This document shows positions 19,353 through 45,564 of a stretch of DNA of 64,000 bases, in pieces (positions within the stretch are counted from its first letter, which is position 1; the number at the start of each line of letters is the position of its first letter). The position numbers and the translations under genes were made by a program. Location: positions 186,001 through 250,000 of the forward strand of contig JAKTTT010000025.1 in the NCBI GenBank assembly GCA_030581615.1, in the 5' to 3' direction. The notes beneath the pieces are model-generated. The model was not told the DNA's origin. It did no database searches and saw only the letters and a list, made by a program, of their open reading frames with translations. Source of the DNA: Alloascoidea africana. Lineage: Eukaryota > Ascomycota > Alloascoideomycetes > Alloascoideales > Alloascoideaceae.

Positions 19353-19601
19353 AGCTTTCACAGACTTTTTTAATCTCATTGAAGAGCCATATTAATTTTG
19401 CTTTTCTCTTGTACTGGCATTTGTTTTTTCTTCGCATGTTTGTTTTTTATATAGTGGACATAGCATCAATGTATTTTGCACATTAAACAATCACATTTTT
19501 TTGACTTTTCAGTGAAGCAGGCATGTCGTGGTTGTCTTATCCATCTAAAACTCTCCTTGTCTGCCTGACACTCCCGACTATCTTTACATCATATCTTCGC
19601 A

Positions 19602-21997: not shown

Positions 21998-22389
21998 TCT
22001 GTTTTCCCTCCTTTTGTGTTTTCACTTGCTTCGAATCATCTGGTAATCATCAATTTACCTCAATTTATGTACATTGGAGATAGAGTAGTCATTAGATTTT
22101 GATTGTTCCTGGAAGCTGACCGTGTATATTATGTGTATCTCAATAATTACAATGGCCCAACCGCTATTATTCTGCACAATGTGGAAAAATCACAAAAAAC
22201 ACAGAATAGAGTAGTAGATAGAGTTTTGTCATGTGATAGATGTTAGGTCACAGCCCTATACTTACCGCTTGTGTATACGAAATAATATGTGCGTACATTA
22301 CAGCATGACCAATCCTCCAACACTATCATTGACAGAATCTTGAGTTTGGCACAAGTCCTGTCAACAGAACAACACCAACATTAACAACA
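21998..22389. promoter_or_regulatory. RPL35 promoter region
   Basis: 392 bases between NUS1 and RPL35, with no ORF of note. Expected to hold the ribosomal-protein promoter. I see no clear Rap1-type or T-rich element. Confidence 0.45.
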
Positions 22390-39647: not shown

Positions 39648-41345
39648 ATGTCCTATCCCGGCCAAGGCTACAACACCTACGGAGGACGCAGCAGTAACAG
39701 CTCAGGCTACTATGGTCCTCCCAGCGGCCCCCCACCAGGAGCTCAGGAGTACGGTGGGGGCTATGGCGGTGGCTATGGCGGTGGCTACAACAACGGGTAT
39801 GGCCAAGATCAAGGTCAAGGAGGTGGAGGTGGAGGCTACTATTCGAACCAGGGAGGTTATGGTGGTGGGTATGGATCTGGATCTCCAGGTCGAGGGTCTA
39901 GGGATCGATATGGAGAAGAAGGTGAAGATCGTCGCCGGTACGAATCCCAAGATGATTACAGCAGGTATGGGCCTCCCCCTGGGCCTCCCCCTGGACACTA
40001 CCAGCCCCCGACAGGCCCACGCCCAGACCGATCGGAGGGATACGGGGAGGATGGCGATGAGGATAGACGTGGATATGGCTATGGATCAGAGGACAGACGC
40101 GATGAGTATAGAAGAGACGACGAAGATCGACATGGGTATGGATATGGGTCTGAAGACAGACGTCGCGATGAGTATAGAAGGGATGAGGGTGGATATGGGT
40201 ATAACCAGCCATCGTCTGAGTACAGGCGCCAGGACCAGGACGAGTATCAAAGCCAGAGCCAGAGCCAGGGCCAGAGCCAGTATCAACCACGATATGATCA
40301 ACGTGGAGACGACTCCGGTGGGAGAGTCCGATACGATGACTACGATGTCACCACCCATAACAAGTACACGGCAGAGGATCCCCATGCCCCATCCTCCGAC
40401 TCCCAAAAGTTTTCTGCTGATGCTGGGGACTATAGCTACAAGTACTCTGCTTGTACGGGTAAGCGCAAGGCCCTGTTGATCGGGATCAACTATACGGGCA
40501 CCAAGAGCGAGCTCAAGGGCTGTATCAACGATGTCAACAACGTGTCTGAGTTTTTGCAGCGCGAACATGGCTTTGCGAAAGAGGACATGGTCATCATCAC
40601 GGATGCCCCGGATAGCCGGGCGTTGCCCAACAAGGACACCATCATCCGGGGCTGCCAGTGGTTGGTCAAGAACGCGGAACCGAACGACTCGCTCTTCTTC
40701 CACTACTCGGGCCATGGCGGACAGGTCGAGGATAAAGACGGCGATGAGGACGATGGGTTTGACGAGTGCATTTACCCCTTGGACTACGAGACCAACGGAG
40801 AGATCATTGACGATGACTTGCACAGGATGCTCGTGGAGCCCTTGCAACCGGGAGTTCGTCTCACGGCCCTTTTCGACAGTTGCCATTCCGGCACAGTACT
40901 GGACTTGCCCTATGTCTACTCCACCAAGGGAATTGTCAAGGAGCCCAATCTTCTCCAAGAGGCTGGTGAAGGTCTGCTTTCCGCCGTCATGAACTACGCC
41001 TCGGGTAATTACGAAGGCATCATGAACGATGTCACAAGTCTCTTCACCAGAGTCAGCATTGGCGATTCTGCCACTGAAAAGACCAAGAAAACGAAAACCC
41101 ATCCTGCGGACGTTATTCTTATCAGCGGTTGCAAAGATGACCAAACCAGTGCAGATGCAAAGGAGAATGGGGCCTCCACTGGTGCCATGTCATTTGCCTT
41201 TTTAACCGTCATGAGAAGGGATCAAAACCAGTCCTATCTCAGTCTTTTGAAAAACATGAGAACCTTGCTGAAAGAAAAATACAAACAAAAGCCCCAGCTG
41301 AGTTGTTGTCATCCTATAGATACAAACCTCAAGTTTGTATTGTGA
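39648..41345 (+). CDS. MCA1: metacaspase Mca1 (Yca1)
   Basis: Ca-dependent Cys protease that cuts after Arg/Lys, linked to protein quality control and stress-induced death in yeast. Single exon, 565 residues. The N-terminal half is a Gly/Tyr/Pro/Gln-rich prodomain, unusually long (about 260 residues), with tandem YGSEDRRRDEYRRDE-type repeats. The peptidase domain starts at RKALLIGINYTGTKSELKGC. The catalytic His is His356 (YSGHGG) and the catalytic Cys is Cys412 (DSCHSG), with the D-rich Ca site region (VEDKDGDEDDGFDE) between them. The CTG codon in ALLIGINY falls on a conserved Leu. A long antisense ORF across the gene is a composition shadow. Confidence 0.97.
   Translation: MSYPGQGYNTYGGRSSNSSGYYGPPSGPPPGAQEYGGGYGGGYGGGYNNGYGQDQGQGGGGGGYYSNQGGYGGGYGSGSPGRGSRDRYGEEGEDRRRYESQDDYSRYGPPPGPPPGHYQPPTGPRPDRSEGYGEDGDEDRRGYGYGSEDRRDEYRRDDEDRHGYGYGSEDRRRDEYRRDEGGYGYNQPSSEYRRQDQDEYQSQSQSQGQSQYQPRYDQRGDDSGGRVRYDDYDVTTHNKYTAEDPHAPSSDSQKFSADAGDYSYKYSACTGKRKALLIGINYTGTKSELKGCINDVNNVSEFLQREHGFAKEDMVIITDAPDSRALPNKDTIIRGCQWLVKNAEPNDSLFFHYSGHGGQVEDKDGDEDDGFDECIYPLDYETNGEIIDDDLHRMLVEPLQPGVRLTALFDSCHSGTVLDLPYVYSTKGIVKEPNLLQEAGEGLLSAVMNYASGNYEGIMNDVTSLFTRVSIGDSATEKTKKTKTHPADVILISGCKDDQTSADAKENGASTGAMSFAFLTVMRRDQNQSYLSLLKNMRTLLKEKYKQKPQLSCCHPIDTNLKFVL
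40066..40200 (+). repeat. tandem repeat inside MCA1
   Basis: Two copies of about 63-66 bases coding (H)GYGYGSEDRRRDEYRRDE-like units, in the prodomain, with smaller imperfect GGYGGGYG and SQSQSQGQSQ runs around it. Such repeats often vary in copy number between strains. Confidence 0.7.
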
Positions 41346-41881
41346 TTTTGTCATGACTTTGAGTACACGTATTTGAATGCTTTCATCATATATATATATA
41401 TGTGCGGTTCATATTTCATAATATATATATGATTTTCCTTTTGTTAACAGCAAAAAAGTAAAGTAAAGTAAAGTAAAATAAATAAATATATCAGCCTTTG
41501 TTTCCGAATTTTTTGAATGCTATATAGGTATAGACAATTAGACAGGTCCCAGGACAGCAAGATAAAGGGGGGAAAAATCACAAAACAATAAACGCTAGAC
41601 GCAAGACGCAAGACGCTTGGGTCTTGAATTGGTGGACCAAAACAAGAGGTACAAAACAATAGAAATGAAGATGAAGATAACAACCCAATAGAGATAAAGA
41701 GAGGAAATAGACAAGGATATCCATTTTGCAAAACATATATATTCGGAGGGTGTAAACACAGGAATGGGAAAATGTGTACAGAACGAAGGAAAAGAAAAAC
41801 AAGAAAAAGGCAACGAGAGGAGAGCTGAATAGAGCTGGAATGACAATACCTGTCATCTTATCAGCAATATGGCGTGGACCA
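41346..41881. other. convergent 3' spacer with short repeats
   Basis: About 535 bases between MCA1 and RHB1 3' ends. Holds TATA-rich runs (41390-41430), AAAGT repeats (41455-41476) and three GACGCAA-type copies (41598-41614). No gene seen. Confidence 0.55.
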
Positions 41882-42886
41882 TTACATAATAATACACTTG
41901 TCGTTAGGTGCCGGAGGAGGATTTTGAGCTTTTTCAATCTCCTCGATCAAAAGTTCAAAAGCCTGATCTGTATATAATTAAAGAGTCAGTCAATAGACCC
42001 CAAAAAGAAAAAGCAGGAGTAAGGTACTTACCAATGTTTTGGTCTTTCTTGGCACTGGTTTCTATGAAAGCACACGAAAATTCTTTCGCCAATTGCTGTC
42101 CCTCAGCAGTAGAAACGGCTCTCTGATTCTGCATATCGATCTTGTTTCCAACAAGTACCATGAGAATGTTGTCTGTGCCTGTGCTGTTCAGAATCTTATC
42201 CCTTATAACCCTGATGGTCTCGAAAGAGGATCTCGAAGCGACAGAGTACACCATAACGTAGCCGTGCACTCCGATCAGATGCTTTTGGTTCATAATGCTG
42301 AACTCGTCTTGACCTGCAGTATCCAAGATCTCAATGGCATACTCTTGTCCTTTGTAATTTATCATTTTGGAAAACTGGTTTTCTATAGTTGGGTAATAAC
42401 TCTCCACAAAGTGGTCTTCGACATATTGAACGGTCATGGATGATTTGCCTAGATCAATCGATTCAAACACTGGTTAGTTTTGCGAGCTCAATTAGGAAAT
42501 TGGCGGGAATAGCAATGACTGGATCATGAAATCCGAGGATTACGATCCACATGTTCAGGTATCAAGGGGTTACAGTCTTTGTCCGGGCACATGTAGACTC
42601 TGCCCAAGCACATAATGCTTCTCCGGAGACTGGCCTCTCTTGATGATCCGGACATGGTCCGAACAACCTTGGTGATTTGCAAATGTGAAGCTTTCGATTT
42701 GTCATGCCAAACCAAAAGACAAACAACGCAAACGAACACAGAATACGAGAGCAATAAATTGGCAATTTCATATCCGTGGATGAAGACAAAAGGCAAGGGG
42801 AAAAAAAATAGAAAAAAGAAATTCGATGGCTTACCGACGGCACGATATCCAACGACAGCGATCTTTCTGGCTTTGGATGGCGGCAT
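41882..42886 (-). CDS. RHB1: Rheb-family GTPase Rhb1, three exons
   Basis: Small GTPase that controls amino-acid uptake and TORC1-related growth. Exons 42835-42886, 42032-42448, 41882-41967; phases agree, 184 residues. The first exon codes MPPSKARKIAVVGYRAV and supplies the P-loop up to the Gly before Lys. Exon 2 carries KSSMTVQYVEDHFVESYY, switch I (YPTIENQFSK), DTAGQDE and VGNKIDM. Exon 3 adds QAFELLIEEIEKAQ and the CaaX box CIIM, which predicts farnesylation. The Arg in the P-loop (GYRAVGKS) is the Rheb signature. Introns: GTAAGC/TCTAG and GTAAGT/ACAG. The first and last exons lie outside the central ORF. Confidence 0.96.
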
Positions 42887-43477
42887 TTTAGAGGAGGTGT
42901 TTGCGATCTAAAGTTTCGGTGCTGAGATTTGGGTCAGATAGAAGCCGTGTGGGCGCTAGAGTCGCTTGGTCTGCTTTTTCCTGAGCTTTGGCTGGAGACT
43001 GGCACTGTGATCGCAGACAGGGAGGAGGGAATGAGGGAAGCCCGGACGGAAGGACGATAAGACGGGGAGGTGTGCTTGGGTAGCAAAAAGCGCAGACCTA
43101 AAGCAGTTACGACGGGGGTTTCCTAAGAAGCGCTCGTTCGCTGGGGGGCGGTGGCAGAGGGCTTGCGGAACGGGGGTCGAGATGGTCGGGACGGGACGGG
43201 ACGAGGGCGCTCTGGGCGGTGTGCTGAGCGAAGCTCCGGTCGGTGAAGAGAGCTTGGCGATGGAGAAGAGAACAGAGGAGGTGGAAATGGAGGTGGAAAC
43301 TGGAAATTGTGCGGACAAAAACAAAAAATGAAAATAATCAAAATAAAAATAAAAATAAAATCGGGCCCGGAAGCGCTTCCTCTTCCATCCGCCAAGGTTT
43401 GCGCAAAAGTCCGCTTTTACATTAACACTAGCCTACACTTTGTCTCTGCGATAAGCACAAACTCCCATTCTCGCCGC
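42887..43477. promoter_or_regulatory. RHB1 promoter and 3' end of the biotinyl gene
   Basis: About 590 bases, GC-rich at 43080-43250 with GGGACGGGACGGGACG-type runs (about 43187-43205), then AT-rich with AAAATAAAAAT runs (43316-43360). Overlapping ORFs on both strands are low in information. No gene seen. Confidence 0.5.
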
Positions 43478-43687
43478 CTAGCTGACGACCGCCAGCACCT
43501 GCTTTTCATCCACATTCTGGCCCTCGGCCACCTTCAGCTGAACCACCCCGGCCTCCCCGGCTGAGGCCACCGTTTCCACCTTCATGTTGGCCACCGTCAC
43601 GAGTGCCGCGCCCTTGTCCACGCGGGCGCCCTGCGCGACGTGGATTCTGGCTACTTTGCCTGTGATTGCGGCGCAGACGTTGCTCAT
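43478..43687 (-). CDS. free-standing biotinyl/lipoyl-like domain protein, 69 residues
   Basis: ATG at 43685-43687, TAG at 43478-43480, no intron. The whole protein is one biotinyl domain: ITGKVARIHVAQGARVDKGA, then VTVANMKVETVASAGEAGVV and a C-terminal half AEGQNVDEKQVLAVVS. The Lys in NMKVE sits where biotin is attached in A/V/S-MKM motifs. In eukaryotes such domains are normally part of carboxylases; here nothing precedes the domain except a repeat-rich leader. Length and layout resemble bacterial single-domain biotin carriers of about 71 residues such as mycobacterial TB7.3. The codons are strikingly GC-rich at third positions, unlike the flanking genes. It may carry biotin for an unknown carboxylase, or act as a biotin store; both are inference. 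The frame extends upstream to 43846 through the repeat, which I read as leader. Confidence 0.7.
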   Translation of the reverse strand: MSNVCAAITGKVARIHVAQGARVDKGAALVTVANMKVETVASAGEAGVVQLKVAEGQNVDEKQVLAVVS

Positions 43688-44325
43688 TGTGATGCAGATA
43701 TTGAGATTGAGATTGAGATTGAGGATGAAATTGAAATTGAAATTGAAATTGAGAATGAGATCGAGATTGAGATGGGAATTGAATAGAGGGAGAAAACCAG
43801 GAAATGCCAGCCCTTTAAATCCTCCCGTAGGCTCATTTCTCCTCATGACACTAGTTCATAGATCGGCAGAATTGGAACTGATTGACTGGGAAATTTCGTC
43901 TGCCTCTGTGATGATCTAGCCCAGCAATCCGCCAATCCAGCAATCCATCTCTGAACCCCCAAGTCTCTTTTTAGCGTATATAGACCGTATGTTGATAGAG
44001 CTCCTACAAAATGACTAAGCCTTTCTTTTGCTACTTTGTCACCTGTTCACCAAAAAGATCAGGTCCAAGCACAGGCACTGAGTCATCCGAGTCATGTTCT
44101 GACTCGTTACGATCCATGACTACGAGTCGAATTGAGGGAAACTCCCATTGGCTACGAATCACTATTGCCAAGCTGTTTGCATTTTCAAATTTTCAAATTT
44201 TCAAATTTTTCGATTTGTCTAAAAAGAAACTAGTATAGCACCTAAAACCTATAGATAAAGGCCAAAAAAAAGAAAACATCTTCATAAGCATCCATGAATC
44301 ATCAAATCAACTATCGTAGAGCTCT
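43688..44325. promoter_or_regulatory. leader and promoter of the biotinyl gene, and spacer to ADH4
   Basis: About 640 bases. The left part is a hexamer-repeat leader (see the repeat at 43700-43782). The rest is AT-rich, with a TTTTCAAA repeat at 44183-44209. A 75-codon plus-strand ORF at 44011 has no family likeness. Confidence 0.5.
43700..43782. repeat. GAGATT/GAAATT hexamer repeat
   Basis: About 13 near-perfect hexamers, read on the plus strand as GAGATT then GAAATT then mixed. On the minus strand this gives a CT-rich leader (TCAATC, TCAATT) ending about 12 bases before the biotinyl-gene ATG. Confidence 0.85.
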
Positions 44326-45564
44326 TTACATAGCATTCGCAAACAATTGAATCACTTGCTCCTTGGTTGGCTGGATAGGATTGGTGATTCCACAGGCATC
44401 GGCCATGGCATTGATGGCCAAGGTCTCAAAGTCGGCCTCCTTGACTCCCAACTCTTTCAATCCGGCTGGGATGCCAACTCTCTTTGACAACTCCTGGATC
44501 TTCTCAATAGCCGCCTCAGCAGTCTGCTCTTTGCACTTGAGATGCTTGGCAACAGTGGCAAGTCTCTCAGAAGCAACCTGGGAGTTGAACTTTTGAACAT
44601 GGGGCAAGAGAATGGCATTGCAAACTCCATGGGGCAGGTTGTAGAAACCGCCCAGCTGATGGGCCATAGCATGTACATATCCCAGCGAAGCATTGTTGAA
44701 AGCCATGCCCGCCAAATATTCTGCGTAGGCCATGTTTTGACGAGCAGTGGCATCCTTGCCGTTGTCAACTGCGGTAACAAGATTCTCCTCGATCAAGTCG
44801 ATTGCTTTCAAAGCACAGGCATCGGTGATGGGGTTAGCGCCCGTTGAAACGTACGCCTCAATCGCGTGGGTCAGTGCATCCATTCCAGTAGCCGCCGTCA
44901 AGGGTTTGGGCATGCCAATCATAGTCGCTGGGTCGTTAACCGCAATTGTGGGTGTGACGTTAGAGTCAACGATTGCCATCTTCACCTTACGTGGGGTGTC
45001 TGTGATAATGGTGAATCTGGTGATTTCCGATGCTGTGCCGGCAGTGGTGTTGATTGAAATGAGAGGCAGCTGGGCCTTGGACGAAACGTCAATTCCCTCG
45101 TAGTCTTGGATCTTGCCTCCGTTTTCTGCAACGAGTGCAACGGCCTTGGCACAGTCGTGCGAGGAACCACCACCGATGGAAATCACAGAGTCGCATTTGT
45201 TGGCTTGGAGCAATGCCAAACCTGCTTCAACATTTTCAATTGAAGGGTTGGGCTCAGCGCCATCGAAAAGAGTCGACTGGATGCCTCTATCCTTCAACAG
45301 GTTGGAAACAGTGGTTGAAAGCCCAACCTTGACAATTCCCTTGTCTGTGATGATGAGCGGGTGCTTAAAACCTTTCTTCTTGATAACGTTCATAGCCTCT
45401 TCCACAGCTCCGTTTCCGAAAAGTGAAATGGGGGCAATGTAAAAACCATGTACATCCTTCTTGGGAACGGTGGTGGAAAAGTTTTTGGCTTGGGCCTTGA
45501 CAAGAGTCCTCTGGGCGGCCTTGAGAGTGGCTGAAAGAGATCTAAGTGCTGAAGTTTGAGACAT
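44326..45564 (-). CDS. ADH4: iron-type alcohol dehydrogenase, ADH4-like, probable mitochondrial form
   Basis: NAD-dependent group III alcohol dehydrogenase interconverting ethanol and acetaldehyde. Single exon, 412 residues. The first 33 residues ([20 protein letters not shown] and on to NFSTT) form a basic, Ser-rich amphipathic leader like a mitochondrial presequence; the Saccharomyces Adh4 protein lacks so long a leader. The core starts at [20 protein letters not shown]. Nucleotide binding: [17 protein letters not shown]. Metal ligands: Asp in the [12 protein letters not shown] region and His residues in [24 protein letters not shown] and [20 protein letters not shown] near 45678-45688 is a possible TATA region. 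An aldehyde dehydrogenase gene lies 3.8 kb to the right. Confidence 0.94.

Follow-up and report, generated by a model that had tools for sequence, protein, structure and literature searches.

A 69-codon open reading frame in a yeast genome encodes a free-standing biotinyl domain resembling bacterial biotin carriers

Yeast biotinyl domains, as the earlier note on this locus stated, are parts of Pyc, Acc1 and Dur1,2, and a 69-residue open reading frame (ORF) that consists of a single biotinyl domain raises the question of where it came from and what it can do by itself. The ORF lies in the window, the 64,000-nucleotide stretch of DNA analyzed here, which is part of contig C25 of a genome of 23,180,953 bases in 138 contigs that is, by gene content, the genome of a yeast. 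In this genome Pyc, Acc1 and Dur1,2, all large enzymes, bear such domains. According to the available part of PMC3347513, the biotinylated proteins of S. cerevisiae are Acc1, Hfa1, Pyc1, Pyc2, Dur1,2 and Arc1, beside which a free-standing carrier of 7 kDa would be a new type; Arc1p is likewise reported there as biotinylated and no carboxylase, but differs in its mass of 42 kDa and in lacking a canonical biotinylation sequence. Among the papers listed in our search of the literature none dealt with a free-standing biotinyl protein in a yeast, which does not prove absence, and the accessible portion of PMC11708051, on transfers into fungi, names biotin once, in its reference list.

The earlier note had described a complete biotinyl domain with an NMKVE motif and a C-terminal LAVVS, and the translation, coordinates and minus-strand orientation agree with that description. 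Pfam Biotin_lipoyl (PF00364) matches the ORF at 36.9 bits, above the gathering cut-off of 22.1, and when all 23.18 Mb of the genome are searched in six frames the same ORF scores 36.3 bits with an E-value of 1.1e-7, far more than chance. It is very improbable that the ORF is not a gene at all, that is, a chance or dead frame without a transcript: although it is short and adjoins a GC island with other long ORFs that lack a known domain, the genome-wide match covers the whole domain, the frame is intact, the domain ends coincide with its start and stop codons, and an A stands at position -3. The genome search found no second copy, so the ORF is single-copy, and nothing related to it occurs in the 10-kb regions surrounding the paralogous GTPase/metacaspase block on C7 and the second ADH4-like gene on C5 (best E 8.6). 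A PHROGs search with the ORF gave weak matches only (best E 0.023). Assignment to the lipoyl domains of E2 enzymes was rejected, the ORF having MKV in place of a DKA-type motif, which the genome's own E2-like ORFs (L007, L008) read as TDKA and TDKI.

Table 1. Features at and around the 69-aa ORF (positions in the window)
Feature	Positions	Strand	Evidence
69-aa ORF, free-standing biotinyl domain; ATG at 43687, TAG ending at 43478, 69 codons	43478..43687	-	translation; Pfam PF00364 36.9 bits; model pLDDT 95
AAG codon of Lys36, predicted biotin attachment site, context VANMKVE	43580..43582	-	alignments
Start context ATCTGCATCACA-ATG, A at -3	43685..43699	-	sequence itself
CT-rich hexamer array (ATTGAG on +, CTCAAT on -), in frame LNLNLN	43700..43773	-	sequence
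ATTTAAAG, TATA-like, about 130 bases upstream of the ATG, candidate picked by eye	43813..43820	-	sequence
3' flank with T-rich stretch	43331..43477	-	sequence
GC-rich, apparently non-coding stretch beside the ORF; GC reaches 65% in 210-base windows	42967..43331	.	
Ras-family GTPase (RHB1 in the earlier note), downstream neighbor, two exons, intron GTAAG...CTAACCAG	41955..42886	-	Pfam, sequence
Fe-containing alcohol dehydrogenase (ADH4-like), upstream neighbor	44326..45564	-	Pfam
Metacaspase-like caspase-domain gene	39648-41345	+	Pfam

There are 638 bases between the stop codon of the ADH4-like gene upstream and the ATG of the ORF, and 591 bases between its stop codon and the ATG of the Ras-family GTPase downstream. 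No carboxylase domain was found beside it, in line with the earlier note: of six ORFs searched against Pfam, the five other than the extended biotinyl frame are without a match at E 0.1. The possibility of a last exon of a larger carboxylase was accordingly discarded, the tested flanking ORFs having no Pfam match, and the minus strand from 43350 to 44330 contains no CTAAC motif, whereas the intron of the neighboring GTPase gene ends in CTAACCAG. In that gene (42441-42900, minus strand) the branch-point-like motif sits right at the 3' splice site, an arrangement that we take to be the style of early-branching yeasts such as Yarrowia. The biotinyl frame stays open for 53 further codons upstream, giving a 122-aa ORF from 43846 (43478-43846, minus strand); this form is possible but disfavored because the extension is encoded mostly by the ATTGAG hexamer array (43700-43773) and contains the TATA-like motif. 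The array would rather be a promoter or 5'UTR tract, and the T-rich 3' flank probably holds the transcript end. A 111-aa ORF on the opposite strand overlaps the biotinyl gene (43584-43919, plus strand) and has no Pfam match at E 0.1.

AlphaFold2, given an alignment of 19 sequences including the ORF, predicts a barrel-sandwich with the attachment lysine in a turn (mean pLDDT 95.0, pTM 0.76, six strands of at least three residues), Met35-Lys36 being placed in the beta-turn that joins strands 28-34 and 37-42. Foldseek gave 869 matches of this model in the PDB, and the best 50 include biotinyl domains of yeast ACC, of human Pyc and of the methylcrotonyl- and propionyl-CoA carboxylases, as well as those of B. 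subtilis BLAP and of the BCCPs of Pyrococcus and E. coli. The same 50 include two chains of the adaptor BesA, which is not known to be a biotin carrier.

Among carriers, the ORF is most similar to free-standing bacterial ones. Of the 22 NCBIfam models listed for it, the best is NF006079/PRK08225 (70 positions), with 40.5 bits and residues 1-67 on positions 1-68, followed by a pyruvate carboxylase model (36.7 bits) and the PRK05889 carrier (36.6 bits), all under their cut-offs (95 for the PRK08225 equivalog). As in PRK08225-like carriers, the ORF product is a single biotinyl domain of about 70 residues without any other domain, and the free-standing bacterial carriers compared here (NF006079/PRK08225; B. 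subtilis BLAP, PDB 1z6h; the 73-aa WP_162571849.1 of Variovorax sp. SRS16) likewise consist of one biotinyl domain of 70-75 aa. The model NF004547/PRK05889, which we take to be that of mycobacterial TB7.3 (Rv3221c), also a free-standing carrier, matches residues 2-69 at 36.6 bits, under its cut-off of 75; TB7.3 itself was compared through this model only. TB7.3 is named a putative BCCP in the available text of PMC3048393.

For a wider comparison, a profile was built from the ORF, the free-standing carrier of Variovorax (L056) and four domains cut from large bacterial proteins; it matched 1980 proteins of 0.55-1.75 times its length, and the best 120 of these were taken. When these 120 were scored with the ORF alone, the 43 proteins of 68-76 aa averaged 36.2 bits and the other 77 averaged 26.2, a comparison in which the profile, holding the ORF and one free-standing carrier, favors the listing of free-standing proteins, and in which many of the 77 are fragments that may lower their mean. 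The top rank of PRK08225 among the NCBIfam models is independent of that profile. The free-standing bacterial carrier P0220 (72 aa) is the best of the 120 with the ORF as sole query (41.0 bits) and is 46% identical over 100% of the ORF. The best matches are free-standing bacterial proteins of 70-74 aa; the earlier note had pointed to single-domain bacterial carriers of such size. The Variovorax carrier is encoded on a plasmid (L056, 3989-4210), with two carboxyl transferase genes within 3 kb; the locus also holds four genes for tripartite tricarboxylate transporter substrate-binding proteins.

Some individual positions support the same affinity. Pro7 occurs in none of the 40 free-standing rows and in all 14 domains of longer bacterial proteins, and is absent from the ORF; Thr9 is found in 39 of the 40 free-standing rows and in none of the 14, and the ORF reads A-I-T-G, sharing xITG with the free-standing carriers where the longer proteins have APMPG. 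With P0220 the ORF has a C-terminal end VDExxVxAVV in common, and its ATG aligns with those of P0220 and P0222. Against the affinity, Met stands in the column of Met1 in only 4 of the 40 free-standing rows, most of which start slightly further upstream. The ORF differs from the free-standing carriers in its yeast host, in reading ANMKVE for ESMKME, in being one residue shorter after Val49, and in lacking Trp13 (Ala13 instead), Glu33, Ser34 and Met37, all of which are kept in 40 of 40 rows. The biotinyl domains of the genome's own Pyc, Acc1 and Dur1,2 share the Met-Lys and the family with the ORF but are parts of large enzymes, and in an alignment that left out L040 they are only 21-30% identical to it (Pyc 30%, 23.3 and 21.1 bits; Dur1,2 and Acc1 21-25%, 7.7 and 12.7 bits, respectively); Pro at position 7 is present in three of the four. 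Domains of larger bacterial proteins come close to the free-standing ones, with 40-44% identity and up to 31.8 bits, or 35.9 bits as cut domains.

The origin was further addressed by phylogenetic trees in which the fungal domains are this genome's four only. In an 86-row tree, which left out L056 (present as P0123) and, by a start-residue rule, three of the 43 short proteins, and which kept 27 of the other 80 listed proteins, the ORF falls with the 40 free-standing carriers with support of 82/67. The grouping rose to 99/98 in a 42-row tree from which many rows and four long branches (Acc1, Dur1,2 and two long bacterial rows) were removed, and remained when Acc1 (93/96), Dur1,2 (94/86), or both together with the two long bacterial rows (86/92) were put back; the 42-row and put-back trees contained 12 of the 40 free-standing rows and 15 of the 27 fragments. 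Thus, in all five trees the ORF groups with free-standing bacterial carriers and not inside its own Pyc, Acc1 or Dur1,2. The AU tests, in turn, left every alternative unrejected: grouping with both Pyc (p 0.417 in the initial set, 0.294 in the 42-row set, and 0.156, 0.208 and 0.176 in the put-back sets), with Acc1 (0.383 initially, 0.349 and 0.342 put back), with Dur1,2 (0.456 initially, 0.286 and 0.223 put back), and, in the initial set, with all four own domains (0.214) or with longer bacterial proteins and fragments (0.424). Such an outcome is what some 70 columns allow; PMC3199775, in its available part, states that the short biotinyl domain makes accurate phylogenies difficult. The tree comparison proposed in the earlier note leans toward bacterial carriers, while grouping with own domains stays unrejected at p-AU 0.156-0.456.

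Donors were also searched for. With the 69 residues as sole query, a collection of 5.8 billion proteins yielded one candidate and no hit; the matches to free-standing bacterial carriers, the best at 46%, came with the profile. Fungi appear to be few in that collection, with two Schizosaccharomyces proteins in one listing of 120. The collection of genome contigs gave one distant locus, and 398 genomes of the phylum of G001 gave matches in 209, the best with 35.1 bits and 41% identity inside a 1161-aa frame; the 64 matching plasmid records are all below 60% identity. Recent transfer from a sampled bacterium is not supported, with no close donor in protein, contig, genome or plasmid searches in which candidates were chosen by exact words and the genomes were a sample of one phylum.

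Transfer from bacteria, as put forward in the earlier note, is favored by the best matches and by the five trees, but is not shown, because the AU tests reject no alternative; nor did the searches reveal a close donor, and domains of larger enzymes reach 40-44% identity. A native origin is fairly unlikely in our estimate; the ORF would then be a strongly diverged copy of a eukaryotic biotinyl domain turned into an independent gene, whether from Acc1, Pyc or Dur1,2 or from a fungal methylcrotonyl- or acyl-CoA carboxylase since lost. Such an origin accords with the unrejected groupings and with a one-residue deletion and an AGE-x-G-x-x-QL string that the ORF shares with the genome's own Acc1, and, since acyl-CoA carboxylases occur in fungi according to the part of PMC3199775 at hand, an unsampled fungal source is possible; against it stand the identities of 30% or less to own domains compared with up to 46% for free-standing bacterial carriers, the position in all five trees, and the absence of a carboxylase remnant from the flanking ORFs given to Pfam. 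Taken as a whole, we give about an even chance to the reading that the ORF is a small real gene for a free-standing carrier of bacterial type, derived from bacteria (or an old eukaryotic offshoot of that family) and acting as a biotin acceptor. An intact frame at such divergence suggests lasting selection. If the carrier is bacterial in origin, it was transferred without its pathway.

Base composition adds little to this choice. The third positions are indeed GC-rich, as had been claimed: the GC3 of the ORF, 0.83, exceeds that of all 32 ORFs with which it was compared, 18 of them from the window (0.40-0.58) and 14 from the genome (0.37-0.60), and only 0.39% of 210-base windows, its own included, are as GC-rich. 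As an argument for transfer GC3 is weak because the GC island extends beyond the ORF into DNA that is apparently non-coding and because the metacaspase gene has a 69-codon stretch with a GC3 of 0.84; the window has six stretches of at least 60% GC, including the ORF and the neighboring 42967-43331. The composition agrees with foreign origin but equally with a local GC island, and GC3 was rejected as proof of transfer, the island being regional. It was also rejected as proof of strong expression: the codon choice is unlike that of three EF-1alpha-like genes, with a low codon index against them, 0.546 in a range of 0.532-0.805 for the 33 ORFs. The stretch 42967-43331, upstream of the GTPase gene, is strand-skewed.

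What the protein could serve was approached through the biotin machinery of the genome. Biotin_lipoyl is found at E up to 10 in nine places, eight of them over the cut-off. The eight places other than the ORF are read as Acc1, two Pyc, Dur1,2, three E2/E3BP-like lipoyl domains and one weak match; the lipoyl match on C62 holds two stop codons in the matched stretch, taken for an intron, and the weak match on C5 (17.6 bits) may be GcvH. In six-frame genome searches Biotin_carb_C occurs in four places, all in the open frames that encode Acc1, Dur1,2 and the two Pyc, and Carboxyl_trans (PF01039) in one, in Acc1. Thus, the four biotin-dependent enzymes found each have their own biotinyl domain. Ligase family PF03099 is over its cut-off in three places, of which, by reading of the translations, two appear biotin protein ligase-like (alike by eye) and one LipB-like; the C-terminal domain of biotin synthase is also present.

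An exon-by-exon six-frame search, which could miss an intron-split partner, found no BC or PF01039 CT domain outside ORFs with their own biotinyl domain, and the earlier proposal of a carrier for an unknown carboxylase thereby loses support; since no such partner was found, the ORF also differs in this from the free-standing carriers of bacteria, which serve separate BC/CT subunits. It is improbable, for the same reason, that the protein carries carboxyl groups in trans for Pyc, Acc1, Dur1,2 or an unrecognised enzyme, as bacterial carriers do for separate BC/CT subunits: the neighborhood of the Variovorax 73-aa carrier and the match of the ORF's model to enzyme-borne carriers are consistent with such a role, but all four BC domains lie in frames with a biotinyl domain and the sole PF01039 found is that of Acc1.

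The motif ANMKVE keeps Met35 and Lys36 but departs from E-A/S-M-K-M-E at positions 33, 34 and 37, and the earlier note had warned that MKV may affect biotinylation. This worry is weakened by the genome's own enzymes, as Dur1,2 reads EAMKTE, also without Met at +1, and both Pyc read SAMKME, with Ser at -3; positions 33 and 37 thus have partial precedent in Pyc and Dur1,2, and Asn34 has none there. The excerpt of PMC3048393 cites both a target lysine in ALKV for Aquifex and an AMKS domain of Sulfolobus left unbiotinylated by E. coli BirA, so that sequence alone does not decide the matter.

Plant BADC proteins have been proposed as binding or decoy modules, and the yeast protein could likewise have kept the fold and lost the carrier function, serving as such a module or drifting. 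We regard this as rather improbable. Met at +1 is present in all 40 free-standing, 14 longer bacterial and 27 fragment rows, and the predicted target lysine is the 34th residue from the C-terminus as opposed to the 35th in reported biotinyl domains (available text of PMC3048393); the retained Met35 and Lys36, the deviations tolerated in own Dur1,2 and Pyc, and the Aquifex ALKV lysine argue the other way.

We consider it probable that the ORF is transcribed, translated from the ATG at 43687 and biotinylated at Lys36 by a Bpl1. The holo-protein, having no dedicated carboxylase, would then be a small soluble biotin acceptor. Because no enzyme found needs a separate carrier, the protein may well be used in this soluble form and not within a carboxylase dedicated to it, a possibility that we rate somewhat short of even. 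Such an acceptor would most likely be a biotin reservoir or a competing substrate that tunes the supply of Bpl1 to Pyc, Acc1 and Dur1,2, and less likely a carboxyl carrier in trans for these enzymes. As a conjecture with a low chance of being right, this yeast may have taken a bacterial carrier without the carboxylase and made it a dedicated acceptor, either a protein-bound vitamin store or a competitor setting how Bpl1 divides biotin among Pyc, Acc1 and Dur1,2. If the protein is biotinylated and partnerless, the idea that a protein acceptor buffers or allocates biotin becomes directly testable in a yeast. So short an ORF may go unannotated in related yeasts.

No match to AATCA-N8-TGAYT, which we take to be a biotin-response motif of S. 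cerevisiae, lies less than 7 kb from the biotinyl gene, even when one mismatch is allowed. The window as a whole has 22 such matches where 15.5 are expected (12 of 100 shuffles gave as many), a count of near-matches not clearly above chance; two matches are perfect (19489-19506 and 22087-22104).

The neighbors of the ORF have paralogs elsewhere in the genome. The GTPase/metacaspase pair (39648-42886) has adjacent counterparts on C7 (L048), whose proteins are 75% and 70% identical to it, and C5 (L047) holds a 77% copy of the ADH4-like gene (44326-45564). Together with Pyc and Bpl1-like genes that are each present twice and EF-1alpha-like genes present three times, identified by reading, these copies suggest an old genome duplication or a hybrid origin.
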